Shown piece after piece: positions 30,924 to 62,342 of a DNA stretch of 64,000 nt; position 1 is the stretch's first letter; the number at the start of each line of letters is the position of its first letter. The notes beneath the pieces are model-generated. The model saw only the letters and a program-made list of their open reading frames with translations. It was not told where the DNA came from and did no database searches. Both the position numbers and the translations under genes were made by a program. The DNA is from Bryum argenteum (taxonomy: Eukaryota > Streptophyta > Bryopsida > Bryales > Bryaceae). The stretch is taken from assembly GCA_037043015.1 (NCBI GenBank), contig CM073321.1, forward strand, positions 23,867,001 to 23,931,000. Reading direction: 5' to 3'.

Positions 30924-30924
30924 G

Positions 30925-35276: not shown

Positions 35277-36600
35277 CTAATATGTTGCATGGTCTAGGAT
35301 TCCTCCCTCCAGAATTTTCTTCACCTTGTTGAAACTAAGAGTGGCCGCGTGGATGAAGAGGTTAGTATCCGCATCGAATTTGCAAACAAATACCGTGATG
35401 AAGTATAGGTGCTTGCACGGTCGATATAGATCTCTCCATTCTAGCGCTGAAATTGTTTTCTTGAATGTTGGGCATGAGCAATCCGGAAATTTACTGATTG
35501 GAAATATATAAACTGCATCCGTATCCAACTCCAAGTCTACAATTCACCCAAAACCAAGCAGCGGATCATGGTCAGCTTGATAATTCTGGCTTGCATTGAG
35601 TTGGCAGACTCAATATTCTTCGAATAGATTTTTTCTTAAATTTTAAAAATTTAAATAATTGTTAATGTAAAAATTCAAAAAAGTAGAATTTTCTCTAGTA
35701 AAAAAGTAAATATGTTTACGGATTTACTAGACATAAAAGCTACACTGACTGCGGACTCACCAGTTCCATGAAGCCACCCCACTGCCTGTATCCGAAGTGC
35801 CAGAACGCAAGCAAGTGTTTGAGTTGACCTAATCCAACTTTAGAGGTGGCCTGCGCCGACGCCCACCACGCTCGGATTGCCCAGTATCTTGTCTCCGCCT
35901 CAGCCATACTGCGTGCATCTTTCTAATGCTTATAAAGATGTCGATGTTGATCCTGCAGCTCGTGCACGATGTATTGTTTGGTGTGTTTCTCTAGGGATTG
36001 CGTCGAATGAAAGTAGCAAGTCCGCTCGCGGCCTTCCATGGGATTTTTAGGGTTTCCAGAGCCGTAAATAATCTGCACAACGTTCCAGTTGGCTTGCGCA
36101 CTGTTGGCCATGAACCCTTGAAACTGCGGCGCTTCCACTCATTTCTTGCTCATGACGTGATTGAGGTTCTTCCAGAAGACAATTTGAGCTTCTCCGTCTT
36201 CAGACTAAAAATCACAGCATGCAATAGTCAGAGTGCGTCAGATTTTTGAGTCATAAACGTGGCACGCCATGTTGGTCTAGTTCTTGACACGCTTGACGTG
36301 ATCGAACATCATCCATGCGTGGGACAGGTCGTCTCGGGGCTAAATACGGCGAACAAGGTCAACACCGCTTCCGAGGCCGACCACGGACATCTTGAAAATG
36401 AAAAATTTGTCACTTTCATCTCCTTGGCCCGAGAACTGGTTACGTTGAATGTAAGCCTAGTTGCTGACGCCTCGAAGTTTGGTGATCCCATCAAGAACAC
36501 TGTATCTACGCAAGTGCTTAAAAGTGCTAATACGATTCCTGACGCTCAGAGAGTTCAGCTCCTTACACTGATCGAAGATAGGTTCTAGCTCTTGGAGGGT
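35277..36600 (-). pseudogene. MULE-type transposase remnant with SWIM zinc finger
   Basis: The minus strand carries ordered pieces of one protein. They are ACCDFQSED-like and EAQIVFWKNLNHVMSKK, then APQFQGFMANSAQANWNVVQIIYGSG (ORF 35923-36138), TQSLEKHTKQYI and QDQHRHLYKH. After one stop come EAETRYWAIRAWWASA and FWHFGYRQWGGFMEL, up to a good GTGAGT donor near 35763. Past a putative intron, 35277-35534 encodes a SWIM finger (CSCPTF ... PCKHLYFI). This order is that of Mutator-like transposases with a C-terminal SWIM finger. Stops at four or more places mean it is dead. It is not an LTR element, and no terminal repeats were found. Confidence 0.7.
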
Positions 36601-45185: not shown

Positions 45186-45196
45186 CAGGGATGTCA
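45186..45196 (+). repeat. Left terminal inverted repeat of the giant hAT element
   Basis: CAGGGATGTCA, the exact reverse complement of 62332-62342. Confidence 0.7.
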
Positions 45197-45220
45197 ATCT
45201 GGACGTCTTTTGGGTTTTTT

Positions 45221-45266
45221 TGGTCGGACGGACGTCCGTCCAGGACCGTCCGGACGTCCGTCCGGG
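45221..45266. repeat. Subterminal GGACGTCC palindromes, left end
   Basis: Overlapping self-complementary words cggacggacgtccgtcc and ccggacgtccgtccgg. The right end has ccggacgtccgg at 62314-62325. Transposase-binding sites of hAT elements are often short repeated subterminal motifs; that role here is an inference. Confidence 0.55.
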
Positions 45267-45385
45267 GGGTAAATCGGAATTACTATGCATGTAGTAAATT
45301 TTTTAACCGTCAGATCGTATTGGAGGTCGCATCGTAGCCGTTCAAATAGTGTTGTGAGTGTAGGTGGTTACCATTGCATTGTAAA

Positions 45386-45712
45386 AGGCGGCCCAGGACC
45401 GTCCGATTGGCCACGGCCGACCGACCGGTCGACGGCGTCGGATCGGTCGCAGCCGACGGATCGGTCGCTTGATCGGCCGCAGGCCGTCCGATTGGCCACG
45501 ATTTCGGTCGGCCGTCGGATGGGGCGCGGTCGGCGTCGGTCTTCCGATCGATCGCGACCGGCCGGTCGGCGCCGGCCGTCCGATCGGTCGGTCGATCGGT
45601 CGGGTCGGCCGCTGCTGATCGGTCGGGTTGGTCGGGCCGGTCGGCACCAGCCGTCGAATTGGTCGGGCCGGTCGGCCATCGGCCGTCCGATCTAGGTCGC
45701 CGGTCGGCCATG
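45386..45712 (+). repeat. GGTCGG/GGCCG-rich array upstream of the kinase-like gene
   Basis: Irregular tandem words such as cggtcggccg, gatcggtcg and ccgtccgat for about 330 bp, extremely GC- and CpG-rich against AT-rich surroundings. Arg/Pro/Asp-rich open frames on both strands are by-products of the repeat. Confidence 0.75.
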
Positions 45713-45723
45713 CGACTGCGGCC

Positions 45724-45730
45724 TATATAA
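45724..45730 (+). promoter_or_regulatory. TATA box of the kinase-like gene
   Basis: TATATAA, a dozen bases after the GC array and about 175 bp before the first ATG at 45898. Confidence 0.6.
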
Positions 45731-45897
45731 GTCCGACCGGTCCTCCACTCTCCTCACTTCTTTCCTTCCTTTTCAGGGTGCGGAGAGGTAGTAGGTTGGA
45801 AATTTTTTTAATTTTCATCCACTGGCTCCTTATCCTAGGGAGGAAAGAAGTCTATCCGTTTGTAAGTGGGAAATTTTGCTTTTTTTTCTTCAAAAAG

Positions 45898-47363
45898 ATG
45901 CCAAAACATGGGGTTGGGGGCAGTGGGGGGAATCGAGGCCGGAGACCAAGGCCGTTTAGACATCTTGAGAAGTGGGAGCACCCATCAAATAAGTGCAAGA
46001 ACTTTCTTCGGGAGAATGTAATCGTGCAATTTTATGAGGCTAACAGTCTTTCACGTTTGTTCAACACATACGTAGGAATAAAAAGGAAGCTCAGGCCAAA
46101 TTCAAAGACGACATGATGAACCTCATGATGGAAGCGCTCACCGATAAGCGTGGATTTACGGATTGGATGGAGGATAGATTAATTGATGCTCTCTGGAACG
46201 CTGTCGACATATTGAAGAGGTTTGAGAGAATGAGTCGAGCGGGTGATGAGGAGTTGAGGAATGTGGTATTGAATGCAGAGGCTTTTCAACAAGCGATGAG
46301 GCCGTATTCCAAGAATCAAAACTGGTGCGGCTCCATAGGATGGTGGCACACGGATCAAAGAAGGTTAATGGAGCTGGATTGCATGAATAATTTGATAGTA
46401 ATTCCTGTCACGGCCCGTATCATCGAACTTAAGAAGAGGACTCTAAGGGGAGGATACGGCACAATTTCCAAAGTTCACATAAGAGGGGTTGTGGCCACTG
46501 AAGAGTTTTGGGAATTTGCTGCAAAGACTTCCAACCATGCTATGACACGACCAGACTTGGCCAAGGTGGAGCATCAGAATGAGGCGTTTGCTATGAGGAT
46601 ACAACATCCAGGTGTTATTCGTTTTATAGCCATTCATGCAAATAAGTTCCAAGGCTATACGTACTGGTGGAATGGCGGCACGATTCGATCGATGTTGGCC
46701 CTTGATGCAAGATATGGAGATGATGTTCATGGAGAGATCGGACTCTCACCTCATTCTGATGATGAGCGTATTCGAGCTTGGCAGTTGGTCCGGTTTCGCA
46801 AAAAACGAACAGAGCTTGTTTGGGCTTTAGTGCATATCATGTGTGAAGTCCACCGGTTGAACTACCTCCACAACGATGTGTCTCCAGACAGCATACTTCT
46901 TCACTTCCCTCAAGATGAATCACGAGTGTATATTGGAGTATGCGACTGGGGGCTAACCACGAGCATGGATGATAAAATGAGGTCCTTGTATACGTTCACA
47001 AAACCCCAAGAGAGAATTGATACTCTACAAGTACGATATTGGGTGGATCCTCGGGTGGCGTACTTGTACAAACGGAGTGATGACATTGATATTATTCCCC
47101 TTTTAAATTGCGCTTCGGAGGAGTTTGCTACGGCACGAATAGCACAACAAATCCGCAAGAAGAGCATGTCGACGGCCTACGAGAATTGCCAAAGTACAAC
47201 GGGGCCAGACCGGTGGTCAAATCAAGACTTGGCAAATGCTTTTGACCAATACTTGGAGATGGTCGCCGATGCAAAGTATACGCTGACTCACGTTGTCAAC
47301 CGCTTCATGGAATCATTCCATTGGCCGGTGCCAAATGATCATTATCGCACCAAGTATGATTAG
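45898..47363 (+). pseudogene. Protein-kinase-like gene with one frameshift
   Basis: A frame opens at ATG 45898 (MPKHGVGGSGG, basic N-terminus, then FLRENVIVQFYEANSLSRLFNTYVG) and stops at 46114-46116. From there a 416-codon frame runs to 47363. Reading context suggests loss of one A in the five-A run at 46079-46083. The second frame has a glycine loop (RGGYGTISKVHI, residue 112-124), a catalytic-loop-like HNDVSPDSILLHF (residue 253) and a DWG in place of DFG (CDWGLTT, residue 278). The Asp of HxD and of DWG are present. The Lys and Asn of the HRDLKxxN consensus are both Ser, so activity is doubtful. It is the first cargo gene inside the hAT-type element. It may be a pseudokinase or an atypical kinase. 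Confidence 0.65.
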
Positions 47364-48102
47364 TAAATTAATTATGCGCATTTGTTTTAGTTCTTGCGGC
47401 TTTATTAGCTTTTTAGATTCTTCATTGAAGTTCTCATGTAGATGTAGGCAAATTTTTTGTAGTCAAATGTATTACATGCCTTCTATATGTAGCGGCTTCA
47501 ATTACATTCTTGTTTATATATACCTTGCAATGATTCTAATGAATGACTTCTTCTCCATTGTTTGTTATTCTATTTTATTACTTCTTACCTTCAATAGAAA
47601 TATCTCCAAATCTTCATGAACAACATTTGAGAATATATAATGAATTGTGAAACTTCTTCATTATATCAACCTTGCGTAGTTGCGATATTAATGGTTTGTC
47701 CGAAGTCAAGTCAAGCATAATATGACTTTTCTTACATATGCCTTTATTTGTATGAATTGAATAACATATCATATGTTAGGTGAGAGTGTGAATAGTGAAA
47801 AAAGGCTTAAAGCCTTACAAAAGAAACTATTACCACCAAGTGAACTCATAGTAAAAATACAAGACATCGCGATAAAATCCTTGAAATAACAAATTGCATA
47901 GTATATTAATATATAACGATATAGTCCGATATCGGATAATCCATTCATAAACAAAATATGGATTTCAGTATTCTCAAAATTGGCCCCTAGCAAGGCGATA
48001 ATGGTGTAGACATTATCCGTTGCAAAAAACTACATAACCTTCACTATAATGACACTATGTATGATGATTTGTCATTCTTAATCCGAGTCTTCATCATCAT
48101 GT
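47364..48102. other. AT-rich gap between convergent gene ends
   Basis: 3' flanks of the kinase-like gene (+) and the following minus-strand gene. No frame with a motif; terminator and polyadenylation signals of both genes presumably lie here. Confidence 0.4.
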
Positions 48103-49296
48103 TTACGACTTGGCGCTTGTGTAGTAAGAAGGTGGTCCTCGAGAAGATTCTCCAAACAAGTAAGTTTGCTTAAAGTTTCTTTCGGCTTCAAGCTGTTCAA
48201 TGTATTCCTGCTGACTTAGAAGTGTGGCTTGTTGGAGATCTCGTTGGTACCTCGCCTCTTCGTCCTCCGGAGATAGATAAGGTGCTGAAGGCAGGTCGTT
48301 ACTTCCGTATGCATTCTGACCATATCCATAATTTGTGTAGCCAACAATGTCTGATCTTCTATCATATTGACCTCCATACTCGTATGTTTCCTTCGGGTGT
48401 GATGGCCTACGGTACTCGGGACTTCCGAATGTTGTACCGTATTGGTTCCCACGATTGTATGGGTTTATAGGATGAGTTGGGCTTGAGTTGCATTGAGCAT
48501 TGGATCCGCTACCCTGCTCACCTCCTAAACCATGTGTACCTCCTGTATACATTGGAGATGGGTAGTTCGAACTAGATCCACCTCTACCGTACTCGCGTTC
48601 GACTTCGTACGTGCTCTGCTGATGGGGTAGCATATAACTCACAGGAGTACTGAATTGGTGGTTACCATGGTTATACTCCTCACTTCCTGTTCCAAAGGAT
48701 ACTAGTGCTTGACGATCATCATGGTTTGAGTCTTGGTTAGTGCCCCCATATGCCCTTGGAGTTCCATGTTGTTGAAGTTGGGCATCCATATCAGCTGAAC
48801 GTTCTGAATAAATAGTATAACAATCGCTTGGTCCCATCCAATTTGTTGGAATGAATCGGTTGCTGCGATCCAATAAATCCACGTTCAAACCTATCACAGT
48901 AGTCCAGTCAATGTCCTTGTGAAGGACTATTTCAGCCCAGACCATGGCCATGGTAGAATACAGCATCAATTCTGGCCTTGTGTTCTTGATTCCAACCGCA
49001 ATTGTGACTTCATGATATTTGTGCGCAAAATGGTCGCTCTTGCAGCTCTTCACTGGGCCTTCGCGATGAGGACCATATTTCTCTGCTTCGTGCCGCGGCC
49101 ATAACTTCATTATGTGATACATCTTCACGTACTTCTTGCACATGGTGCAATTCCAAATGTCTGCCCTCTCCTCTAGCCAATCCGGCTCTGCAACACAGTT
49201 TGGGTCACTCCATGCTTCCCAATCCATTTTTGGAGGGTCGCCCTTTGGTCGTGGAGACTTGGCCTCGCCTCTCGAACGTGAAAACTTCGGCGCCAT
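48103..49296 (-). CDS. Protein with unrecognised CKKYVKMYHI domain and Tyr/Gly/Ser-rich tail
   Basis: About 397 residues. The frame is open from 49404, but the TATA-like ataaata at 49437-49443 would put transcription start near 49405-49412, so MAPKFSRS at 49296 is a likely initiator; 49404 remains possible. The order is a basic N-terminus, DWEAWSDPN, then a conserved block CTMCKKYVKMYHIMKLWPR and CKSDHFAHKYHEV (a possible Cys/His metal site). STMAMVWAEIVLHKDIDWTTV follows, then a long low-complexity Gly/Tyr/Ser/Gln tail ending in a charged helix (EDEEARYQRDLQQATLLSQQEYIEQLEAER). The first half is paralogous to the product at 54945. No known domain is recognised. It is intact, without stops. 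Confidence 0.7.
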   Translation of the reverse strand: MAPKFSRSRGEAKSPRPKGDPPKMDWEAWSDPNCVAEPDWLEERADIWNCTMCKKYVKMYHIMKLWPRHEAEKYGPHREGPVKSCKSDHFAHKYHEVTIAVGIKNTRPELMLYSTMAMVWAEIVLHKDIDWTTVIGLNVDLLDRSNRFIPTNWMGPSDCYTIYSERSADMDAQLQQHGTPRAYGGTNQDSNHDDRQALVSFGTGSEEYNHGNHQFSTPVSYMLPHQQSTYEVEREYGRGGSSSNYPSPMYTGGTHGLGGEQGSGSNAQCNSSPTHPINPYNRGNQYGTTFGSPEYRRPSHPKETYEYGGQYDRRSDIVGYTNYGYGQNAYGSNDLPSAPYLSPEDEEARYQRDLQQATLLSQQEYIEQLEAERNFKQTYLFGESSRGPPSYYTSAKS

Positions 49297-49436
49297 TCTC
49301 AGCAGCGACAAGTATGCACAGTGTGGGCGTGGAAGACCTACGCGGACTCTGAGCAACGCAATTGATGCAGCTCTAAAAAAAGCCACAACGTACAGCCCAT
49401 TCACCAGAGTGAGGGAGAATGAGCCCCTCCCATCCT

Positions 49437-49443
49437 ATTTATG
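49437..49443 (-). promoter_or_regulatory. TATA-like box of the minus-strand cargo gene
   Basis: ATAAATA on the minus strand, directly next to the GC-rich array 49450-49745. Confidence 0.45.
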
Positions 49444-49449
49444 CCAACC

Positions 49450-49745
49450 GGAGATCGGACGCCATTGGCCAGCTGGCACTGGCCGTCCGATCCCGGAGGA
49501 CAACCGTCACATCGGCAATCGAGCGGCCGGCAATCGAGCGGCCGGCGATCGGCCAGTACAACCGATCGGGGTCGCACGACCGGTCGGTCGATCGGAGCCG
49601 CCCGATGGCGCGGCCGATCGGTCAATCGGGGCCGCCGATGCTGGCCGACCAATCCAAGCCACCGGCGACCGGCTATGCAACCGGGCCGGCAACCGTCGAC
49701 CAGCCCGGCAACCGGCGTCCGGGCTCGCGACCGACCACGTCCCCT
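49450..49745 (-). repeat. GC-rich GGTCGG/GGCCG array upstream of the minus-strand cargo gene
   Basis: Words such as gatcggccag, ggtcggtcgatcgg and caatcgagcggccgg; same composition as the arrays at 45386, 54525 and 61972. The plus-strand side (49700-49900) recurs next to the array at 52515. Confidence 0.7.
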
Positions 49746-50492
49746 AGGCGACCTGTCGGTCGCTCGTTCCCCGTACCTCTCCTCCACTTCCACTACTTGC
49801 ATCTCCCCAACTTCCCCATGCACGATTTCGAGGACTTCCCTGCATTACATATTTGCAATTTGAATAGTACTATTTTTAGCCTGGATAGTCCACTTGGTGT
49901 CTAAATATGGACAGGGAATGTTCTGACAAGGGAATGTCGGGAATATCTTTTCGTCATAAACGGGAATGTTTTATGACAAAGATACTATCGGCTTTAAATA
50001 TATCTATAATAAGGGACTCTTTGCAAAAGGAGTGAAGGCCAACAAATCTCCAAGCCAATTCACTCACTTTTTGAGTTATGTTGCCCAATTAGCTTGAATT
50101 GGACAAAACATTTAACGATCAATATAGTGGGGCCAATTTTCCAAGTCGTGAAGTCCTTCGAAGTTGAAGCCCATCTCTAGAAGGAGAGCCAAGGCCATGG
50201 GGCCAATTCTTATTATTAACTAGAGTCCATGTTGTTTATTTGTACACTTTTATTTTTTATTTTTTATTTTTTTGAAATATTCTTTTCTAACACCTTAACA
50301 ACCATGGCCACCATTTCGTCTTTTATCGTCACGGCCAAAAAATGTTTCATATTCAACTTCAAATGTTATGATCTCGCATCTAGTGATGATCCAACGGTTG
50401 AAGATTTCACACTACTACATATGGTAGTCTACTCAAGATCCTATGGTTGAAATTATAAAATATATTCAAAAATATTGGACATAGCCTCTTTA

Positions 50493-50776
50493 TGGTGAAA
50501 CCACCTATTGTCGTGCACTTAAGGAAAATTGAGGGAATCTATATACTTGGTGTGAGAAATGAGTGGGTTACTATTTTTCACGGATAGGGAATAGGAAAAG
50601 ACAAGCTAACACTATTTATGTGCTTTTTTAAAGCACACACATAAAGAAATACAAATTTTAGAAGGAGAAGCCTAAAGGCGGGCACCCTAAATATGTACGC
50701 ATGAGGTACATGCAAGGGAGGTGAGATCTTTATAAAGGCAAGAATCTTGGGTGCCCGCCTTTAGGTGGTTTCACCA
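50493..50776. mobile_element. MITE with 14-bp inverted repeats and TA duplication
   Basis: The left end TGGTGAAACCACCT and right end AGGTGGTTTCACCA are perfect inverted repeats, and TA flanks both sides (50491-50492, 50777-50778). An inner inverted pair (cctaaaggcgggcaccc / gggtgcccgccttta) extends the fold. 284 bp, no coding capacity. TA targets suggest a Tc1/mariner-type source. Confidence 0.7.
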
Positions 50777-51758
50777 TAGTTCATAGTGGTGAGTGCTAGT
50801 ATTGCAAGCTCCCATGGATTGACATTCATTTCTTCTATCTCCCAACTTTTGTCAAAAAGTTATCCATTCTCACTAGGAGATTTTGCCATGTTTTGGCCCC
50901 CATTCATGGCTTGCCCCTAGTGTGTACCCTGAGGTGGCCTTAAATCCTCTTAGATTACATTCCAAAAATTTTAACTATTCCTTGGTGAGAGTATACTGAT
51001 GTCTAACATTGGAGAGATCCAAGTATATATGAAATGTAGGTGAGCATGTGTGAGCATTTACTTTTCATAACTTTGGTATTACTGTGTTTGTCAATATTTA
51101 GACTTTCTATTTGGGGCTTAACTTTTCCACATTTTATGGTCTATATTATTTGATGGGCATTTGGAAATTACTCCATCGTTGTGTATCTAATTCAGTAGTA
51201 CTTATTATAAAAAACATTGTGCTTAAACAATTAATTCTATTATTGGCTATTTTTTGTCTCACACCCTTCAACTAACCTAGGAGTACATATATAATCTAGT
51301 ACATATAATTGTAACTAATTTGCAGATATACTTTTTTAAAAATTAATTGTAGCATTATTCTTATTGTATGGATTTGAATAGTTACTTATTTCCCTCTTAC
51401 AAAGGTAATAGAAATAAGTTTCTATTGTTACTATTTTGCAATCATAAAATAAGAGAAATAAATAGGGAGACAAATAAATTTATGAAAATATCCCACCCTA
51501 TAAGTGTTTAACATATGGCAATAATGGCATCAACTTCTAAATTTTTAATCATATTTGATATTGTACACGTATAGTACATTAGTACTAAGATTAGATGTTA
51601 TATAAAATACATTATTCGTATACGATGATTGATTGATTTGGGAATAGAATATTTTGAAGAGCCATCACTTCTTCATTTACAGTATCTAATGGATAAAATC
51701 ACTTGTGGATTAAATTTAAGTTCTTGGTTTAAGATGTATGAATTACTATCTAGGCCTC

Positions 51759-51813
51759 TAGGGTATAGGGTTTAGGGTTTAGGGTCTAGGGTTTAGGGTT
51801 TAGGGTTTAGGGT
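51759..51813 (+). repeat. Interstitial TTTAGGG telomere-type repeats
   Basis: About seven consecutive gggtttaggg-type units, some degenerate (gggtatag, gggtctag). The second duplicate has a more decayed version at 53661-53691 (gggtttacggtttacggtttaggg). Confidence 0.8.
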
Positions 51814-52514
51814 CTTGAGGATTTGGGATGGATTTCATTTTAATCCTAGTTTTTGTGTTGCAAAGCTTTGCAAACACAATTGTGTGTGGAAGTAAAATAA
51901 TGGATCCCTATATATATGGTGTAGTTCGCAATTATATTTTACATGGAAACAAGTTGCACTTCTCTACATCGCATAGTTATTATGTGCAAAATAATCTATT
52001 TTGTATTTATCATTTTTGATTGAAGATGTTATTGACATGGAATAAATCACACATTTATTGCAAAGAATATATAGGTATAGTATTCAACATTCAACATAGG
52101 GATTAAGATTCCAGAGTCTTCAATCTCATAGCCTATTTTTAACCAATATTGGAATAGAGTTACTATTGTAGGTCATGTGGCTTAGAGTTTAATTCATAGA
52201 GCCTCATAGATGATAACGTATGAGTACTGAAGTAGTATTTGTACAAAACATCTTTGATTTCGTGAAGATCTATACTTTTATGGAGTCCACTCGAAATGGT
52301 TATGAACTTAAAATTTAAAGTTCAGATGTATCCGTGAAAAAAGAATACATAGCATTTCAGAAATCAACATAGGATTCCTTTTTGCATTGTGTACTAATTA
52401 CTGAAAATCAAGTAACAGAAATCTTTGAGGACTAAAAATAGGATCCTATGCAAATTTATTACATTTTAGTGATATATATAGAAAAAAAAATTTTAAAAAA
52501 AAAATAAAAAAAAA

Positions 52515-52645
52515 ACCCTACAGCGACCGCCCATATCGGTCGGCCGCCATCGGGCGGCCGTGGGACCGGCCCGGCGTCCGGCGACCGGCCTGGCGACCAA
52601 CTACATCCCCCGAGCGACCGGTCGGTCGCTCGTTCCGCGTCCCCC
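52515..52645 (+). repeat. GC-rich array without an attached gene
   Basis: gaccgcccatatcggtcggccgcc and similar words, followed by a pyrimidine-rich segment matching 49740-49800. It is part of the second copy of the tandem duplication; no open gene follows. Confidence 0.6.
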
Positions 52646-54445
52646 CTTCCCCCTCCTCCTCTTGCCTCTCCCCAACACTCCCCGTTTGCACAACTTTGAT
52701 CACTTCCCCGCGTTGCATACCTGCATTTTCAAAACTACTATATTTAGCCTGTATGGTCCACATGGCGTCTAGATATGGACAGGGAATGTTCTGACAAGAG
52801 AATGTCGGGAATATCTCTTTGTTCCAAACGAGAATGTTTTATGATAAAGATACTCTCGGCTTTAAATAAATCCATAATAAGGGACTCTCTTCAAGGGGAG
52901 TTAAGGCGAGCAAATCTCCACGCCTATACACTGACTTTTTGAGTTGTTGTGCCCAATTGGCTTGAATTGGAGTAAACATTTAACAATCAATATAGTGGGG
53001 CCAATTTTCTCATTTGTGAAGGCATTGGGAGTTGATGCCCTTGTCTATAAGGAAAGCAAAGGCCATGGGGCCAATTCTTATTATAAGTTAGAAACCATGT
53101 TTTTGATTGTACACATTAATTTATTTCTGTTAAAATATTCCTTCTTAACCCCTAAAGATCCATGGACACCAAAGTGGAGGTTTTCTATTTCGGGTAGCTT
53201 AGATGAAGAGGTCAAAAGTAATAATTTTTTATTAAATTTTTACTGGTGCTCCTTACACCGCAAAGTGCATGTGGTAAAATTTGCACATCCAAATTCCAAA
53301 TTTACAACCTACATCTAGAATATTTAGGTTTGAAGTCCATAAAGGGCAGTTAAATTTAGTCTTTGTTTGAAATTCTTTTTTGGAAATATGTTCATGAACA
53401 ATTTACTACTTGAGTTCGAAAGTGACCCAAGTCAAAATGTTTTTCAATTTCACAAGGGTAGCCTTGAGAGATTACAAAAATAATCTTCACAATTTCTAGT
53501 AATTTCTGAATTAACTCTTCCTTCGATTGATTGTTTTGAAAATATAATATTTTAAAGAGGCATCTCTTCTTCATTTAGAGTATCTAGTGGATAAAATCAC
53601 TTGTGGATAGGATTTATGGTTTATGGTTTAGGATGTATGAATAACTCTTTAGGCCTCTATGGTATAGGGTTTACGGTTTACGGTTTAGGGTCTTGGGATT
53701 TTGGCATAGATTTCATTTTCATTCTAGTTTTGGTGTTGCAAAGCTTTGCAAACACCATTGTGTGTGGAAGGGAAATATTGGACTCGTGTATGTATGGTGT
53801 AGTTCTAAGTTATATTTTAAATGGATAACAATTGCGAAGACTGTACATCGCATAGTTAATATGTGCAAAATAATCTATTTTGTATATATCATTTTTGATG
53901 AAGATGTTATTGACATGGAATAAATCACACATTTATTGCAAAGAATATACTGGTACAATATTGAACATTCAACATTCAACATAGGATTTAGGATTATAGA
54001 TTCTTCAATCTCATAGCCTATTTTTTACCAAATGACGCTGTTCCAAAATAAGTGTCCTATATTAAAATGAGGATACTCCAATTGACATTCTCAACCATGC
54101 AATATTGGAATAGAGTTACTGCTGTAGGTCATATGGCTCAAAGTTAGATTCATAAAGCCAATGTCCAATTAATTTACAAAAGAAAAATAGAGAAGAAAGA
54201 TACTGATTGGAACCAAATGAATGCCTTATGTATGAAACATCTATGAATTTGTGAAGATTTACACTTTGAAGAGTCCACTCAAAATGGTTATGAACTTAAA
54301 ATTTAGAGTTAAGATGTATCCGTGAAAAAAGAATATATAGCATTTCAGAAATCAACATAGGATTCCCCTTTTCATTGTGTAATAATCACTGAGAATCGAA
54401 TAACCGAAATCTTTGCGGAATAAAAAAGGATCCTATGCAATTTTG
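52560..54445 (+). repeat. Second copy of the large imperfect tandem duplication
   Basis: Matches the two blocks of 49680-52470 in the same order and orientation with a shorter middle. Both copies end in A/T homopolymer-rich sequence (52480-52515, 54460-54520) directly before a GC-rich array. Confidence 0.75.
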
Positions 54446-54524
54446 TAAGATTTCTGTAGTATATATTTTATTTTATTTTTTATTTTTTTAAAAAAAAAAA
54501 TTGAAAAAAATTTGAAGAAAAAAA

Positions 54525-54790
54525 CCGCAGCGGCCGCCGAGATCGGTCGGCTGCCTTGGTCGATCGGCATCGAACGGCCGACACCGAGCGGCCAGGATCG
54601 GCCGACCACATTGGTCGGCCGTAATCGGTCGGCCGATTGTGGCCGGTCGGCAGCGATCGACCGGCGCGAACGACCAGCCACGATTGGCCGGCCCCGATCC
54701 GTCGACCGGATCGACCGGCCACGATCCGTCGGCCGGACCGGCCGGCCAGCATCGGTCGCGACCGTGATTGGCCGAGCGACCGGTCCGTGC
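54525..54790 (+). repeat. GC-rich array upstream of the second CKKYVKMYHI gene
   Basis: Tandem gatcggtcggc, ggccggtcgg and gaccggccacgatc words over about 265 bp. A TATA-like ataaaag follows at 54822-54828. Confidence 0.7.
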
Positions 54791-54821
54791 GGCCAGTCTC
54801 TAGGGTTAGGAAAGGGAGGGG

Positions 54822-54828
54822 ATAAAAG
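54822..54828 (+). promoter_or_regulatory. TATA-like box of the second CKKYVKMYHI gene
   Basis: ATAAAAG about 32 bp after the GC array and about 117 bp before the first in-frame ATG at 54945. Confidence 0.45.
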
Positions 54829-54944
54829 GCCTTTGGGGCCTCATTTCCCCTCACTTCTTCTCGTATACATCCATCTCAACTGAGCTGCAACTGTGGGCAT
54901 TAGCTTCTTGTGTGCTGCATTTGTGGTGGCGGGGGGAAGTCAGC

Positions 54945-55928
54945 ATGATACTTGCGGCTGCTGCATCGAATTTTTGCATACTTGGGATATCTTCGGGGTA
55001 TTTTAAATACTCCCTATTCTTCATGGCGACGGATATCGATAACACGAACATGGATGCTGGTTCTGAACAGACCTTGAGGTCATCTGCGACAGAAAACTCA
55101 AACGCAGGATTGGTGGAGACTGAGTTGGTTTTACATGAGACACTGTCAAAGAGAGTGAAACCAAAAGGAGCGAGACATGAGTTGCACTACGAGATCTTGG
55201 ATAATGAGGCCATCAAAGCTGAGAGAGGTTGGGCCAATGAAACGGAGGAATACTGGAGATTGGCGACGTGCAAGAAATATGTGAAGATGTATCACATTGG
55301 GGAACTTTGGCCTCGAGAATGTCACAAAGTTAATACCAATAATTTTACTTACAACCCACAAACATGCAAGGATGATCACTTCCTTCATCGTGCTGAAGAA
55401 GTTTGGATGGCATTGTTTGGAACTCGTCCCAAGAGCAAAGGTTATTTTTCCTATACGCTTTTGAGCATGGTGTATGCTGAGCTCATATTGAAGCGCAAGG
55501 TGAACTGGAGCACATTCACGGCGAGTAGTGCATATCCTCTTCGAATCGGGAGAAATCAGAAGGATATCCCAGATATGTTTAATCTAGAATCGAACTCTAC
55601 AAAGGCCTTATTGCAGCACTTGAGGAGGAAAACTCATGAGACGACGGTGAAGGAATCTCCTTCAACAACCACGACACATGAGGAGGATGGAAGGAATATG
55701 GTTGCCACGGATGCCCCAATCGTAGAACCGACTATAACTGATAGGCTCGAAGGTGCAAACGTAGTTGAAGAACCTCATGTAACCTCGGTACCAACATCAG
55801 AGGAGGCAGGGCCAAGTGAACTACGGGAAACCAGAGCACCAAGTGATGCCATGGATGACATGGATCCCAATTCGGATGTGGTGCCAAATTTCGAGGGGTA
55901 TCTGCGTAAGGTACTAAAGGATAACTAA
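54945..55928 (+). CDS. Second protein with the CKKYVKMYHI domain; frame continues into the RING gene
   Basis: About 327 codons from ATG 54945 (MATDIDNT at 55023 is an alternative start). The central block CKKYVKMYHIGELWPR, CKDDHFLHRAEEV and LLSMVYAELILKRKVNWSTF aligns with the minus-strand paralogue at 48103-49296. Around it are acidic, Thr/Glu-rich linkers. The frame ends in TAA at 55926-55928, but the same frame continues (DEWMKKAERLADWCNEVD), meets TAG at 55998-56000, and then runs open to 57644 through a RING protein. So this was probably the N-terminal part of one long protein, or the two are read separately. No function is assigned; the Cys/His pattern could bind metal. Confidence 0.6.
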   Translation: MILAAAASNFCILGISSGYFKYSLFFMATDIDNTNMDAGSEQTLRSSATENSNAGLVETELVLHETLSKRVKPKGARHELHYEILDNEAIKAERGWANETEEYWRLATCKKYVKMYHIGELWPRECHKVNTNNFTYNPQTCKDDHFLHRAEEVWMALFGTRPKSKGYFSYTLLSMVYAELILKRKVNWSTFTASSAYPLRIGRNQKDIPDMFNLESNSTKALLQHLRRKTHETTVKESPSTTTTHEEDGRNMVATDAPIVEPTITDRLEGANVVEEPHVTSVPTSEEAGPSELRETRAPSDAMDDMDPNSDVVPNFEGYLRKVLKDN

Positions 55929-56087
55929 TTGGATGAGTGGATGAAAAAAGCAGAAAGATTGGCAGATTGGTGCAATGAGGTAGATAAAGAGCAAGGTTAG
56001 TCAGGGAATGATTGGGAAAGTACTTCGGCTGAAAAGATAGGTGCTCTAGGGATCAACTTAAAGACGGGGTCAGAAATACTTGCGGAA

Positions 56088-57644
56088 ATGGGTCCTCCTT
56101 TTGTGGAGATGACTCACACTTTTGCAGGTATCATGCCCAACGTTCTACTAGCTGCCATAAATTTTGAGGCACTCGTAGATCGGTTTCTGCCTCTACTGAC
56201 GGGCCGAGTGAAAGATTATCAGATCATTATCAAAATGCACAAACAACACCAAATTACGCAACGTCTCCTTGACGAGTTTTACAGGGAATTGCGGTTGTTT
56301 GGCCAAGGTCCTGCTAGGGAGTATGTGACAAAGTACCAAAAAGCAATGCGCCAAAGGGATGCGTTAGAAGACTTAGAAGATAATGACAACTTTGTTCCAT
56401 CACAGAATGACACTCAGGGGGCTTCATGTAGTCATGTTGTTCCAGAAGGTGATGCGGGTGGTAAAGACGATGGTAAAGAGGATGGTGAAAAGGATGGTAA
56501 TAAAGATAAGGGGAAGACCATTATCGAGACTTCTGATAGTCTTTTTCTTTCACAAATTGATGCGGGTGGTAAAGAGGATGGTGAAGAAGATAATGGACAA
56601 GCCTATATCAGGGGTTTATCTCCTCTTAGAGAGGTTGGTGAAGAGGATGGTAAAGAAGATAAGGGAAAAACCATTATCGAAATAGACGATGATGACGATG
56701 ATGAAATTCCGGGGGAATTGAAGTTAATAATATCACAAAAGGAGATAGATAATGCACAGATTGAGCGACAACGAGCATGGGCGATGAAGTTCGCGGCAGT
56801 GAAGAAGGAGAGAGATGTTACAGTTGCGAAATTGGAGGAGGAAGCAAAAGCATGCTCAATTAAGTTGGAGGCTACAAGTAAAGAGAGAGATGAGGCAGTC
56901 GCTGAATTGGAGGCATTACGGAAAACCTTCAAAACGGTAGATTCTACAGAGACAACAATCCAACTACGCATACTACCATGGTTGGGATGGGTTCATCGAC
57001 TTCAAGATAGGAGGAGCTTGGTTTCAAGGGCAAAAGAAGATCTGAAATCTATTGCATCTACATCAAAAGAATCACGTGAAGTTGTAGATGCTTCATTGGA
57101 GAAGTTCTGTACGAACATATTGAAAAAACGATATGACCCTGTAGAGGTCACTTTTTGGGGGGATATTGAAAAGATGATGGAGCGTACAAACTACTTTAAG
57201 ATGGAACAAAACAATGATGTTGATTGGACTATGGAGATAGAGGAAGGATGGGCGCCGTATAGTAGATCCTCATCGCACCTACAAGAGTCAGCTCGCATTG
57301 TAATAAACACATGCGACTTTCCTCCCGCATTACTTAAAGACAAATGTGCGGTGTGCCAACATAATTTTGGTCCAGAGGGCGCATACACGTTGGGCCAATG
57401 TGGCCATAACTTCCATGTTACTTGCATATGCCGATATGCGATGACTAAATCGGTATGTCCGGTATGTCGCTCCCCATTTAGCACGAGATTCTACGAGATG
57501 ATGGGAATACGAGATCTTATGCCACCAGGGCACGAGTTCAAACGATGGAATCTTCCACTGGATCAATACCCAAAGAAATTTCTAAACTACTCTGATTGGG
57601 GAATGCACTTAACTAGAGTTCGTCCGAATCAAAACACCAACTAG
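56088..57644 (+). CDS. RING-H2 protein (probable E3 ubiquitin ligase type)
   Basis: 518 codons. An N-terminal helical part (MPNVLLAAINFEALVDRFLPLL) comes first. Two imperfect acidic/basic repeats follow (GGKDDGKEDGEKDGNKDKGKT and GGKEDGEEDN..., residues about 120-210). Next is a coiled coil (ERQRAWAMKFAAVKKERDVTVAKLEEEAKA, about 225-285), a VEVTFWGDIEKMMER block, and near the C-terminus a RING-H2 finger (CAVC, QCGHNFHVTC, CPVC; residue 420-460). All eight metal ligands are present in C3-H2-C3 order. RING-H2 proteins usually recruit E2 enzymes. The ATG at 56088 lies in the same frame as the upstream gene, separated by two stops. The last block before the RING is shared with 57870-58367. Confidence 0.75.
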   Translation: MGPPFVEMTHTFAGIMPNVLLAAINFEALVDRFLPLLTGRVKDYQIIIKMHKQHQITQRLLDEFYRELRLFGQGPAREYVTKYQKAMRQRDALEDLEDNDNFVPSQNDTQGASCSHVVPEGDAGGKDDGKEDGEKDGNKDKGKTIIETSDSLFLSQIDAGGKEDGEEDNGQAYIRGLSPLREVGEEDGKEDKGKTIIEIDDDDDDEIPGELKLIISQKEIDNAQIERQRAWAMKFAAVKKERDVTVAKLEEEAKACSIKLEATSKERDEAVAELEALRKTFKTVDSTETTIQLRILPWLGWVHRLQDRRSLVSRAKEDLKSIASTSKESREVVDASLEKFCTNILKKRYDPVEVTFWGDIEKMMERTNYFKMEQNNDVDWTMEIEEGWAPYSRSSSHLQESARIVINTCDFPPALLKDKCAVCQHNFGPEGAYTLGQCGHNFHVTCICRYAMTKSVCPVCRSPFSTRFYEMMGIRDLMPPGHEFKRWNLPLDQYPKKFLNYSDWGMHLTRVRPNQNTN

Positions 57645-57680
57645 CCATTCAATTTGGTGGGGAGCATGATCAGTTATTTT

Positions 57681-57842
57681 TGATGACACGAGATTACAAA
57701 ATAGAGATAAGGGCGAGGAATATCGAAGGTGATGAGCAACGAGAGTTGTTTTGTCCTTACTTTGGAGGGCATTGGAGCGTCGAACACAACGGTTTCTTTC
57801 GATTTCCTCCAAAGAGAGTGGAAAAGGGAGAAGATGGTTCGT
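57681..57842 (+). CDS. Small frame after the RING gene
   Basis: 54 codons (MTRDYKIEIRARNIEGDEQRE ... CPYFGGHWSVEHNGFF) in another frame than the RING gene; the frame is already open upstream of 57645. It could be a shifted C-terminal extension of the RING protein. No family recognised. Confidence 0.3.
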
Positions 57843-57869
57843 GACACAAAATAACCGATTCAACCAGCT

Positions 57870-58367
57870 TTGGTGAGGAGTAAAGAAAGTACGATCAATA
57901 CTCCAATTGGAAGAGCTGCGGTCCTTGCGAAATTGGAGGAGGTCGCAATATACCAGACTTCGATACCAGAAAATTCTTTTGAAGATGTAGAGGTCTCTTA
58001 TTGGGATGCGGTGAAAAAGTTTGATGTGCGTATCGATGATGCCATTACATTTTGGAGAGAATGTCTTTTAAACCCAAAAGACACACAACTTCTATTATAG
58101 GATGAGTTTGAAGGTGTTGTACAGGATGTCGTTGCAAAGATCGAGAAGGCCATGGAAATCTTACGTAACAAACAAGTGGATCCTAGCAAAAAGCGGAAGA
58201 GGCAATCGGGTGAAGATGGGGAGGATAGTTGGCAGGCGGAGATGAGAGGCGAAATCGCAGCCGTGGATCGAGAGTATGAAGAGGGCGGTCGAATCGCCCG
58301 TCCAAGTCAAAGACCGCGTACTCGTAGTGTAGCTCAGATTGGCCAATCGGATGGATCTTCAGTTTGA
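57870..58367 (+). pseudogene. Paralogous fragment of the RING protein's middle region
   Basis: One frame of about 165 codons with a single TAG at 58098-58100. The block VRSKE ... VEVSYWDAVKKFDVRIDDA resembles VSRAKED ... VEVTFWGDIEKMMER of the RING protein. The C-terminal part is basic (PSKKRKRQ, a possible nuclear localisation signal) and Arg-rich. No RING finger follows, so it is a partial tandem copy or a separate small gene. Confidence 0.5.
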
Positions 58368-58758
58368 AGTTAGAACGGATGTTGGACCTTAAGTTGCACG
58401 TATATAACTATATATATATATATATATATATGCTTTTTCTAGGTTGTATGGTTGTTGTTTTAAAAATGATGAAAATGCCACCATTGATCCATGGGGCCTT
58501 ATTTTTGAAGTAAAGGGTTACAATCTTTTTGATTTAATGTGCATTTCTTCTCTATGCTTGAGAGTGAAGACTATTGTACGACAAGTCTGTAAAAATATAT
58601 GTAATATTTTTCAACACATTGAATGTAGTCATGTAGACAATAGAATCTCCAAATGCATTCGGAGTATATCAATAAAGTACTACAATAAACTATAGATACA
58701 ATTTCTATAATAAGTATAAGTCCTATGAACCTATACTACATAAAGATGCCAAATTCAA
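58368..58758. other. AT-rich gap with (TA)n microsatellite
   Basis: (TA)n at 58409-58431; otherwise no gene. It separates the plus-strand cargo genes from the 3' end of the transposase. Confidence 0.5.
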
Positions 58759-61662
58759 CTACTCATCAAGACCAGAGGATTGCTCATAATCGCTATCTCC
58801 CTTCACTTCAGCTCCACTAGACCCCGTAGGATCATATTCATAATCGCTTGGAACCTCCTCTTTGATCTTCGGTTTAATCTCTGGACATTGTATATACCCA
58901 TACTTATGCCAAGTATCAAATTCGGGGAGATTAATAGGGATCTTCGGTTTTTTAGGCGGAACAATTGGAACCGTTGCAGGTTTTCGTTTATGCGACTTGG
59001 AAGTGCCAAGCATGTGCTGTAACCCCGTGGCAGTACGAGGAACATTGGCATTTTTTAAATACCTGCCCAACGGTACATCATAGTCACTAGGAATGCTCCC
59101 ATATTTGGCTCTTGAAAGGGATACTAAACCCTTAGAGGATTTCTCCAAGGTTGTCGTAACCCTTGTAGTAGAGGGTTGAAATAAAGCGCGGGGAGTAGCA
59201 CATTCATCAAATACTTGATCCTTACTACCGGATGCGATATTCTCCGCGACCGGATCAGAGCTCATAGTGCGCGCAGTAGTATTGCACACAGTGGTCTTCA
59301 CATCTATCGCCTCCTTTTCCAACCGTAAACCACTAGCGAAAACAAGTAGGACGTTATTCGATTTGTCCATGCCGCCTTGTGTCATTAACCGTGCTAACAG
59401 CTGCTCATCATCTAGATCATCCGCCGAAACACCATGAGCGATAAAATCACCATTAGCATCCTGAACGTTTGGAGCATCTTCATCATTTGAAGCGGGGAAG
59501 AAAGTCATATCATCGTCTTGATCACCAAATTCAAAATCATCATTGTCATCAGTCTCTGATTCGTCCTCGACAGCTTCCTCATCGTTCTCATGTACTTGGT
59601 CTTCCTCTAAATCCAAGTTCTCTCTATACCACCGCCCATCATCACTCAACTTATCATTCGCGAGCAATTTCGAGTTGGAATATATGTAGACCAAGTCATC
59701 AGCTCTGCCCAGTAGTAACCGATTCCGTTTCTTGTGGTGAACATAAGAGTAGCTACTCCAGTTGCGTTCGCAAGCCGACGAGGACACGGTATGTGCTAGT
59801 ATTCGCTTTGCAATTGGAGAGAGGAGCTTAGCACAAGCACCTTCAAACTCCCACCATGCATGTGGAGCTAGTTTTTGAGTATTAGGCTCCAGCATGTCAT
59901 GGAATGGTGGACCCCTTACTCGAAACCCAAGAAATTCACTCACCACGTCTGCGTAATCCTCCGCATGACATAATTTTTGTAAAACACGCTTGCAAGCTAT
60001 TGTAAGATCGGGATCGTCAGCTAACTCTTGGTCATGTAGTAAATAAGGATTTAAAAGTGCAGCCGCGCCATGTAAATCCGTTGTCATGAGCCGTTTCCGA
60101 TGGTAAAACTCCTCTTTTGCGGTGGCCACCTCAAGTGGTTCCAATGAGATTGGCGGTGTGTGCAAAGTATGGACATGTCTCTCAAGATCACGCATGATAT
60201 GCCAAGCCTTGCCCGTACTAGGAGCCTTGCCGTCGAATTCTCTCAGAGCGTACACTACGGGGGCCACCATATCCCGTAATCTTTTGCATTACTCCCAAAA
60301 GTCATCGCTCAACACCTCCTTCTTGACCTTACGGGAGAATATAAGCTTATCTCTAGCAGGTACCGTCTTCTTCGAGGCATAGGCTGTGAACATAGGGTCG
60401 ACAACAACTTGCTCCAATGATTCCTTGACCTCCAACAAGCGATCTATCATTATGAATTGACTAGCAAATCTTGTTTTCCCAGGCATCAGTAGGCTGAATT
60501 TCGCCTCGTGTTTACGAAACACAGCTAGGGGCATTTGTCGCCTCTTGATAAACTTGACCATTTTCTTCGCCATGACCAAAGTATTCGCCATCCATCCAGC
60601 CTTTCTCCAATCCTCCAACAACAAGTCCATTGCATGTGTCGCACACCCTTGCATGAAAATGTTCGGATATTTCTCAAGGACTATTCTTGAGGCATTGAGC
60701 ATTACAGAAGCATTGTCTGTGCATACTTGAACAATGTTCTCTGGTCCAACTTGTTTTATGTACTTCAACATGAGAGTTGACATGTACACCGCTGTTTTTT
60801 CTATGCCAGTAGTATCCACAGCACCAAGAAAAAGCTCTCCAGCTTGAGTCACGAGCATCGCATTCACCAAAGGGCGACTAGTCACAAATGACCATCCATC
60901 CATAGTCAAAGTTCTTCCAAACTTCCAAAGGCTCTCCAAGAGTCAACTATCTAGTTTCTTTTGTAACTCCGTCTTTACTTCTCCCAACAACCTTGTTCGA
61001 ATGTCATGGTAAGATGGTGGAGCATAGGATTTTTGAAATCCCGCAGTCTTCATCACGGCTGCTTTGAACGCATCATTCCGCGCTACAGAAAATGGTATAT
61101 TTGCTTCGTAGAAAAATCTCGCCCAAAGTTTATCCAACTCCCGCCTATCCGCTTCTGCAAAAGTAGCTTCAATTGAAGATTGCTTCGTTTGCTTCATAGA
61201 TCCAAACATCGGGCGAGTATCCTTAATTCCCCTCATAAGCATGGAAGAAGCAGAGGTTGACCCAACCAAAAGATTTGTTGAATTCATGGGGGTGCCTAGC
61301 GAGGACCCTACACAAGAGTCACTCCTAGAAGTTTCTGGAATGTCATGTTTTGAAGCACCTGGAACGTTCGTGGATGGAGTGAGAGAACATTCACTAAGAA
61401 ATACGTCCAATTCTCCGTAATATGGAGGGAACTCCCCGCCACATTTTAAATATAATTGCCTAATTTTTCTAGGAAGCTTTGGGCAAAGGTCAGAACTCGA
61501 ATCCCTATGTCCAGGAATCTTCTCGTACCCATAATGACTTAGATTCCGACTCTTCTTCTTGGAAACTATTATATGACATAGTGAGCATTGTATGAAGGAC
61601 CCAGACGCTTTGCCTTCCTTCTCGATGTCTCTAAACCAAGGCTCATATGGAGCAGGGCCCAT
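58759..61662 (-). pseudogene. hAT transposase (BED finger, DUF659-like core, hAT dimerisation), two in-frame stops
   Basis: One continuous minus-strand frame of about 968 codons, from ATG 61660-61662 to 58759. It is broken only by TGA at 60943-60945 and TAA at 60289-60291, with no frameshift. In order it shows a BED-like zinc finger (CSLCHIIVSKKK ... H) near the N-terminus and a Ser-rich linker. The RNase-H-like core has the first Asp in LTMDGWS, the second in VCTDNASVM and a C-x2-H (GCATH). The Glu is in SSACERNWSSY, followed by the dimerisation segment (KKRNRLLLGRADDLVYIYSN). The C-terminal 200 residues are acidic, then Lys/Pro-rich. This enzyme would cut the element at its inverted repeats. 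The stops suggest this copy is recently inactivated, unless it is read through. Confidence 0.85.
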
Positions 61663-61862
61663 TTTGATAAATAAGACGCCTCAAAGTCATAAACAGTGGT
61701 GGGTCCGTGACGTGAAAAAAAATGGCAAGAGGTCCTTACGGAAATCCTCACTTCCGAACTCAATACCTACCAAGCAATGTACACATATAAGGAATTATGC
61801 AGCTCAAAGCCCTTAGAAAGTGTTCAAAATTCGGAAGTGAAATGAGACTCAATGTCTCTTCT

Positions 61863-61870
61863 CTTATATA
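61863..61870 (-). promoter_or_regulatory. TATA box of the hAT transposase
   Basis: TATATAAG on the minus strand, about 200 bp before the start codon and about 100 bp from the GC-rich array. Confidence 0.6.
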
Positions 61871-61971
61871 CCATCCAACTCTGAATATGATCGTTGCAAT
61901 TTGAAATTGAAATGCTCCTAAACCGTTGGATGCTGAAGGGGGCCATCTGGTCATAGGTGGTCGCCAAATGC

Positions 61972-62225
61972 GAGGGCCGGTCGCAGCGGCCGACGGCCGG
62001 TCGCCCGAGCCGACGTCCGGACCGAAGGCCGGTCACCCGGGACCGAAGGCCGGTTACCTGGAACCGACGGCTAAACCGAAGGCCGGACTGAAGGCCGGTC
62101 ACCCGGGACCGACGGCCGAACCGAAGGCCGGACCGGTGGCGCGACGGCCGGTCGCCCTCCCCGACGGCCGGCCAGCCGAGCGGTCGGTCGGGCCGACGGC
62201 GAGCTGGAGGACCGGTCGACGGGGT
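61972..62225 (-). repeat. GC-rich array upstream of the hAT transposase
   Basis: The most regular of the arrays: gaccgaaggccggtcacccgg-type units repeat (for example near 62019, 62040 and 62090). It lies between the right terminal repeat and the transposase promoter. Confidence 0.75.
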
Positions 62226-62331
62226 GGTTCAACCAATGAACGCACCGCGATGGTCATTTACCCTTAGTAAAAAGACCAGAATCTCTAAGTCACGGGCGGT
62301 CCCCAGACCCTTGCCGGACGTCCGGACGCTG

Positions 62332-62342
62332 TGACATCCCTG
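62332..62342 (-). repeat. Right terminal inverted repeat of the giant hAT element
   Basis: TGACATCCCTG, exact reverse complement of 45186-45196. The bases outside (aggagaat) do not match the left flank (gacaaaac). Confidence 0.65.

Follow-up and report, generated by a model that had tools for sequence, protein, structure and literature searches.

The window analysed here is a stretch of 64,000 nucleotides from the moss Bryum argenteum (C1:23867001-23931000, C1 being contig CM073321.1), and its positions 45186..62342 are occupied by an element of 17,157 bp with the ends and the transposase of a hAT transposon. The element, which is collinear with copies elsewhere in the genome that bear target site duplications (TSDs), harbours four protein-coding genes. 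On the forward strand lie K, encoding a protein-kinase-like protein of around 496 amino acids where intact (45898..47363), and UR, a single gene that spans about 1,107 codons in the reference copy (55023..58367). The reverse strand encodes U1, a protein of about 400 amino acids which combines a C-x7-H-x23-C-x3-H domain with a C-terminal part rich in G, S, Y and Q (48103..49296), and T, a hAT transposase of 967 amino acids in its intact form, which contains DUF659 and a hAT dimerisation domain (58759..61662). Judged from its sequence, the window element is very probably a broken member of a multicopy family of giant hAT elements of about 17 kb with a fixed four-gene set. The window copy is broken because K is split between two frames, with the frame change between about 46,044 and 46,116, UR contains six stops and T two in-frame stops; U1 is free of stops.

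The element is bounded by the 11-bp terminal inverted repeat (TIR) CAGGGATGTCA, which is perfect at both the left (45186..45196, + strand) and the right end (62332..62342, - strand), just as an earlier note on this DNA had described. The same note had reported matching subterminal palindromes; the right one, CCGGACGTCCGG, is exact (62314..62325), but its left counterpart, CCGGACGTCCGT, agrees with the palindrome at 11 of 12 positions only (45250..45261). For a single window, the 11-bp ends alone are within chance, with two or more matches (at most one mismatch) in 50 of 100 shuffles; the subterminal palindrome is beyond chance, two matches at the same tolerance occurring in none of 100 shuffles. 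Across the genome searched (258.8 Mb, 25 contigs), the CAGGGATGTCA 11-mer was found 616 times versus 102 times for the reversed control, and convergent pairs of it around 17 kb apart recur among the matches listed, which extend on C1 up to 22.0 Mb.

Ten copies were fetched, selected from the match lists for K and T in the proper arrangement, and each covers 76-99% of the window element's span at 89-95% identity in an alignment comparison. Both ends, with at most one mismatch to the 11-mer, are present in six of them, five of which have duplications matching at 8/8 positions and one at 6/8; for the remaining four, the K-side end alone was located. Eleven further convergent pairs, ten from the 11-mer list plus L004/L005, show a perfect duplication in eight cases and one at 7/8 in three. 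Taken together, 17 two-ended copies besides that in the window, a non-random selection and a subset of the convergent pairs listed, comprise 13 with duplications at 8/8, three at 7/8 and one at 6/8, the probability of a perfect 8-bp match by chance at one pair being 1.5e-5 if equal base frequencies are assumed. The terminal repeats are within one mismatch of CAGGGATGTCA at all ends counted; next to the C1:4868731 copy, a right-end match with one mismatch was left out of the count, the surrounding sequence not being element-like. In the family, the two ends thus belong to one element and not to separate ones, as the earlier note had assumed and as the TSD-flanked collinear copies indicate, and the additional copies it had anticipated, which share both gene set and ends, are numerous. 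Twelve of the 17 pairs delimit elements of 16.0-18.7 kb, four of 23-31 kb and one of 3.2 kb. In this shortest element (C1:8091502-8094747; L065, L066), of which the ends alone were read, shared ends are combined with a perfect 8-bp duplication, and it is presumably a non-autonomous deletion derivative.

Empty sites, also anticipated in the earlier note, were sought by comparing the joined flanks of six copies with the subset of sequences already retrieved. Uninterrupted relatives spanning the insertion junction were obtained for two of the six: three neighbouring repeat units correspond to the target of the copy on contig C7 (71-80% identity), and window positions 35287-35533 correspond, weakly, to that of the C1:18057733 copy (66% identity). 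These relatives are paralogous, and none is allelic.

Recognisable K, U1 and T genes, some of them partial or interrupted, are present in all ten fetched copies and UR in nine; UR is missing from C7:11301384-11319398, a copy with a perfect TSD. Genome-wide, 150 matches to T, 96 to K, 95 to U1 and 79 to UR were scored, and the gene-copy counts are lower bounds since these are the best of 790-1,448 candidates. Second pieces of one place (5 of 101 K, 5 of 100 U1 and 3 of 82 UR rows) were removed before matches in the same orientation and in canonical order were chained within 34 kb, and random shifts (200 trials) served as the null. Among the scored matches, at least 18 groups of four genes, 38 of three and 63 of two were found, compared with shifted-null means of 0, 0.07 and 12, respectively; 25 K, 14 U1 and 8 UR matches are unpartnered, and many copies are interrupted by stops. 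That many copies hold the same set in an unchanged order agrees with the view of the earlier note that kinase-like, RING and unknown-domain genes travel with the transposase. Single-copy host genes, which would have argued otherwise, they are not: K, U1 and UR are multicopy and in register with the transposase at many loci. The note had, however, treated the RING gene and the unknown-domain gene as separate, which has to be corrected: RING and unknown domain reside in one protein, UR, and the unknown domain is present in two proteins, U1 and UR.

In the 967-amino acid frame of T, PF04937 (3.5e-35) and PF05699 (1.2e-10) are both above the Pfam cut-off. The match to the MULE transposase family PF10551 was limited to 17.1 bits, under its cut-off of 27.6. 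An inward-reading hAT transposase with all three catalytic residues had been noticed at this place. The D, D and E residues are present, but in the window the gene is split into three open reading frames (ORFs), with the two in-frame stops. Among 11 copies, the aspartate of the MDGW motif is found in ten (N in L029), the aspartate of the DNA motif in all 11 and the glutamate of the CERNW motif in ten (lost in L045). We take these residues to be the counterparts of the catalytic ones of Hermes, to which the C-terminus of T aligns weakly (E 0.05). At C1:35400487, C1:26441015 and other places, transposases of a second subfamily are found; these are about 74% identical, and some have long open frames (972 amino acids) that are stop-free over the matched stretch.

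K is a divergent kinase-like protein, an intact frame of which elsewhere in the genome comprises 496 amino acids. Its score against Pfam Pkinase is 16.5 bits, below the cut-off, its best PDB match in a single-sequence search is casein kinase I gamma (E 0.0008), and the K family profile found nothing in the PDB at 0.001. A precomputed Pkinase domain is recorded for 17 of 46 related proteins (26-55% identity). An alignment of 28 rows, with 26 drawn from the 46 relatives and the other two from the present genome, shows no variation at the catalytic Lys, the alpha-C Glu, the HxD Asp or the DWG Asp; the motifs are mostly HND and always DWG. Among 11 copies in the genome, the HxD Asp is replaced by Glu in L037, and the catalytic-loop Asn by Ser in the window copy and its nearest fetched copy, L031 (C1:24168655-24185898); this Asn-to-Ser change is confined to these two and is not seen in the other nine. 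Species-named relatives come from Ceratodon purpureus, namely M758_3G001500 (54%) and KC19_VG055000 (40%), and 'VG' in the latter would stand for the V chromosome, as read from the locus tag. The KC19_VG055000 cluster (P0032) is listed with 126 member sequences and one contig, the longest contig being 110.5 Mb, and may represent annotated transposon cargo. A further relative derives from a metagenome bin labelled Bacilli, where contamination is possible. An NCBIfam scan returned no family for K or U1, and IMG/VR contigs queried with one K relative gave zero matches.

UR consists of an N-terminal U domain, an acidic and coiled middle part, a RING-H2 domain (above the Pfam cut-off, 6e-9) and a C-terminal part; its NCBIfam match was far under the cut-off and was treated as chance. 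Frames of 1,089-1,204 amino acids, stop-free over the matched stretch, exist at C1:17828351, C1:15226890, C1:31495553, C2:26349785 and C4:25865857, and an intact U1 frame of 405 amino acids is likewise found elsewhere in the genome. The domain common to U1 and the UR N-terminus was recognised by profile comparison (99.8%, E 3.5e-29); zero Pfam families matched it above cut-off, and the U1 family profile found nothing in the PDB at E 1. Relatives elsewhere comprise 34 proteins for U1 (34-88% identity) and eight for UR (33-58%). All rows that cover the motif, 27 in the U1 family and seven in the UR family (of 34 and eight), show the C-x7-H-x23-C-x3-H pattern, two U1-family rows having slightly longer spacing. 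The U domain is accordingly best described as a candidate for an undescribed zinc-finger-like domain, and it is predicted to bind zinc.

Selection was assessed from the ratio of non-synonymous to synonymous substitution rates (dN/dS) in pairwise comparisons of 11 copies (55 pairs, or 45 in the case of UR), the medians of which are 0.42 for T, 0.44 for U1, 0.47 for K and 0.72 for UR, with single pairs of up to 1.16 (U1). In all four genes, variants common to two or more copies fall preferentially at third codon positions (p 1.1e-6 for T, 6e-4 for U1, 0.0066 for K and 0.0056 for UR), and changes restricted to a single copy are distributed near-evenly (p 0.049 for T, 0.083 for K, 0.66 for U1 and 0.78 for UR). 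The contrast between shared variants and singletons is significant for T (5e-4), U1 (0.002) and UR (0.009). These codon-position statistics ignore the copy tree and are weak gene by gene; they suggest that all four genes are under weak purifying selection. Since shared variants are skewed and singleton changes are near-even, the genes appear to be kept functional in an active lineage and to decay in dead copies.

Each of the four genes is preceded by a GC-rich CpG island, which in the window lie at 45326..45800 (upstream of K), 49426..49850 (upstream of U1), 54501..54850 (upstream of UR) and 61876..62325 (upstream of T; this one contains tandem motif repeats). A central non-coding region with diverged direct repeats (49698..54466) contains a further island at 52501-52725. 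The islands are 150-700 bp long with a CpG observed/expected ratio of about 1.15-1.65, and were found upstream of K in 11 of 11 copies, of UR in all ten UR-bearing copies, of U1 and of T in ten of 11 each, and mid-element in ten of 11; further islands are located in flanks or inserts of some copies. In copy L039, the first 96 or so codons of UR are missing. The words CGACCGG, CGGTCGG and CGGCCGA are common to the islands and seldom occur elsewhere in the window, in a comparison that was not GC-matched. The central direct repeats (window 49698-52986 and 51627-54466) have spacings of about 1.9-2.0 kb and 2.87 kb; within them, part of the island upstream of U1 is present a second time. A short TTTAGGG-like run of the plant telomere type is found inside the central non-coding part at 51770-51815.

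The scored matches are concentrated on C1, which with 44.09 Mb is the longest contig seen and makes up 17.0% of the genome: 59-80% of them lie there, with 100 of 150 for T, 67 of 96 for K, 76 of 95 for U1 and 47 of 79 for UR. The RRM family, used as a host-gene proxy, has 4 of 135 matched stretches on C1 (p 3e-7, with stretches treated as independent, which is not quite so). Matches to the Ty3 integrase family, the best 150 of 1,801 candidates, include a near-identical group mostly on C1; 45 of the 150 lie there, which is above 17% (p 6e-5). As Ty3 integrase is also enriched, C1 is rich in repeats overall, with the giant hAT more concentrated still, exceeding Ty3 integrase with p 1.4e-10 for T and 1.5e-5 for UR. 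C1 is thus a gene-poor, repeat-rich contig which holds most scored element matches. In the moss Niphotrichum japonicum, a sex chromosome was proposed from largest size, lowest gene density, highest repeat content and Hi-C contacts (PMC10619864), and C1 is a candidate sex chromosome, presumably a non-recombining one. The window itself contains Ty3-type retrotransposon fragments at 5523-7052 and 30327-30938, with an integrase H2C2 motif, a chromodomain and a capsid-like match just under the cut-off.

Several observations weigh against a mobile giant hAT family with a fixed gene set. The window copy is itself broken and, as the earlier note had conceded, without an 8-bp target duplication, its flanks GACAAAAC and AGGAGAAT agreeing at 3/8 positions. 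Among the matches listed, 61 of the 150 scored T matches are without a partner gene. With regard to selection, the shared-versus-singleton contrast of K is not significant (p 0.11), the T singletons are slightly skewed too (p 0.049), and dN/dS of UR is as high as 0.72. The island words are uneven, CGGTCGG occurring 11, 1, 2, 3 and 1 times in the five islands. Finally, the single genome analysed showed neither an insertion polymorphism nor an excision, and cut-and-paste movement is deduced from sequence comparison. Could the left and right ends derive from different insertions, as a composite of two unrelated elements or as chance ends? The missing TSD of the window copy speaks for this, as does, weakly, a switch of the nearest copy over its last 2 kb or so by about 1% identity; however, the window copy is collinear with TSD-flanked copies, and 16 of 17 other pairs have duplications at 7/8 or 8/8, so that such an origin is extremely improbable. 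At the level of the family, separate elements or chance ends are ruled out by TSD-flanked copies, ordered gene groups and collinearity. At most, a recombinant right end between two family members is weakly suggested for the window copy; a search for the reciprocal recombination partner with two 19-base patterns yielded 12 and 7 matches, all with two mismatches. Large viruses often carry kinase and RING genes, and this, together with the large size of the element, would fit a Teratorn-like fusion in which the accessory genes stem from a large DNA virus. Such an origin has very little probability, given that Pfam scans of the element's large ORFs revealed zero viral core domains, the K relative queried was unmatched in IMG/VR contigs, and the species-named K relatives are from Ceratodon, apart from the one possibly contaminated Bacilli-labelled bin.

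Within the preferred reading of a giant hAT family with a fixed gene set, the transposase presumably cuts and pastes the whole unit via the short ends and the subterminal CCGGACGTCC sites. The accessory genes K, U1 and UR probably serve the element. They might instead be passengers, i.e. three host genes captured by an ancestor and inherited by every copy, useless to the element. The stops in many copies, the fast evolution of UR (dN/dS 0.72) and its absence from the C7 copy with the perfect TSD are in line with passengers; against them stand the preference of shared variants for third codon positions in K, U1 and UR alike, the median dN/dS of K (0.47) and U1 (0.44) near that of the transposase (0.42), relatives of similar length at around 50% identity, and the look of an integrated design conveyed by the domain common to U1 and UR and the GC-rich island before each gene, and we consider passengers unlikely. 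It is more doubtful still that the accessory genes aid the plant, for instance in defence, signalling or sex-chromosome function, and that the transposon is kept for them in the manner of Starship cargo. A kinase and a RING E3 ligase would be plausible host functions, and K relatives in Ceratodon have gene names, one with a V-like locus tag; yet the gene set of the fetched copies is constant and not variable like Starship cargo, many copies are decaying, and C1, which holds most matches, is poor in the host-gene proxy (RRM 4/135).

If K, U1 and UR do serve the element, it is tempting to speculate that they form a self-encoded anti-silencing and expression set resembling that of VANDAL elements with their VANC proteins, although we regard this as a tentative idea that is more likely wrong than right. 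The proposal is made because the VANC proteins that VANDAL elements encode in Arabidopsis act on densely placed non-coding motifs, and their anti-silencing activity has been demonstrated (PMC5735166). In such a scheme, the GC-rich CpG islands preceding the four genes would be the binding sites of the U-domain proteins U1 and UR, and the RING domain of UR together with the kinase K might modify or remove a host silencing factor. The parallel has its limits. VANDAL elements are MULEs, whereas the element described here is a hAT, and we know of no kinase, RING or U domain in VANC systems. Both kinds of transposon code for proteins beyond the transposase; however, the VANDAL motif is YAGTATTAY, in contrast to the GC-rich CGACCGG-like words found here, and anti-silencing, demonstrated for VANC, would in the moss element be an analogy (PMC5735166).

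hAT transposons, such as Ac, Hermes and Tol2, are usually a few kb in size. The moss element resembles the superfamily in its 8-bp TSD, its short TIR starting with CAGGG, a transposase with DUF659 and hAT dimerisation domains and the catalytic D, D and E; it differs in its size of around 17 kb, in three added conserved protein genes and in the CpG island before each gene. hAT TIRs are 5-27 bp long (PMC12506042). The same paper describes ToxhAT (ToxTA) as a fungal, 14-kb, single-copy and non-autonomous element, a cargo-bearing DNA transposon formerly called hAT, the TA duplication and 74-bp TIRs of which contrast with the 8-bp TSD and 11-bp ends found here, and for which its authors propose a place in Tc1/mariner (PMC12506042). 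Fungal Starships are likewise large transposons with genes beyond the transposase, but are described there as possessing a tyrosine recombinase captain and variable cargo instead of a hAT transposase and one fixed set (PMC12506042); the captain's DUF3435 tyrosine recombinase was not among the domains in the element's large ORFs scanned. Teratorn of medaka is also a giant composite DNA transposon, though piggyBac-like and 180 kb in size (PMC10175614). Searches of the open-access literature, outside which most subscription papers lie, for giant or cargo-carrying hAT elements and for moss hAT elements returned no giant hAT with a kinase, RING or U-type domain. What is new is a hAT transposon with a fixed four-gene architecture, the superfamily itself being known.

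With three conserved accessory genes carried as a fixed set by many copies, the family breaks with the minimal hAT plan; ToxhAT, the best-known 'hAT' with cargo, may not be one, given its proposed reassignment (PMC12506042). The giant hAT offers an independent place to ask whether plant DNA transposons evolve anti-silencing outside the VANDAL lineage. For a moss genome, many single-gene duplicates on the sex chromosome have been described and a benefit suggested (PMC10619864); multicopy sex-chromosome genes of that kind could be transposon genes. Mosses might even carry an old four-gene hAT lineage that encodes its own anti-silencing machinery, i.e. DNA-binding U-domain proteins, a RING ubiquitin ligase and a kinase, and that colonises UV sex chromosomes, a speculative picture which we think is rather unlikely to hold in full. 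If it were true, part of the duplicated genes counted on moss sex chromosomes would be transposon equipment and not moss genes.

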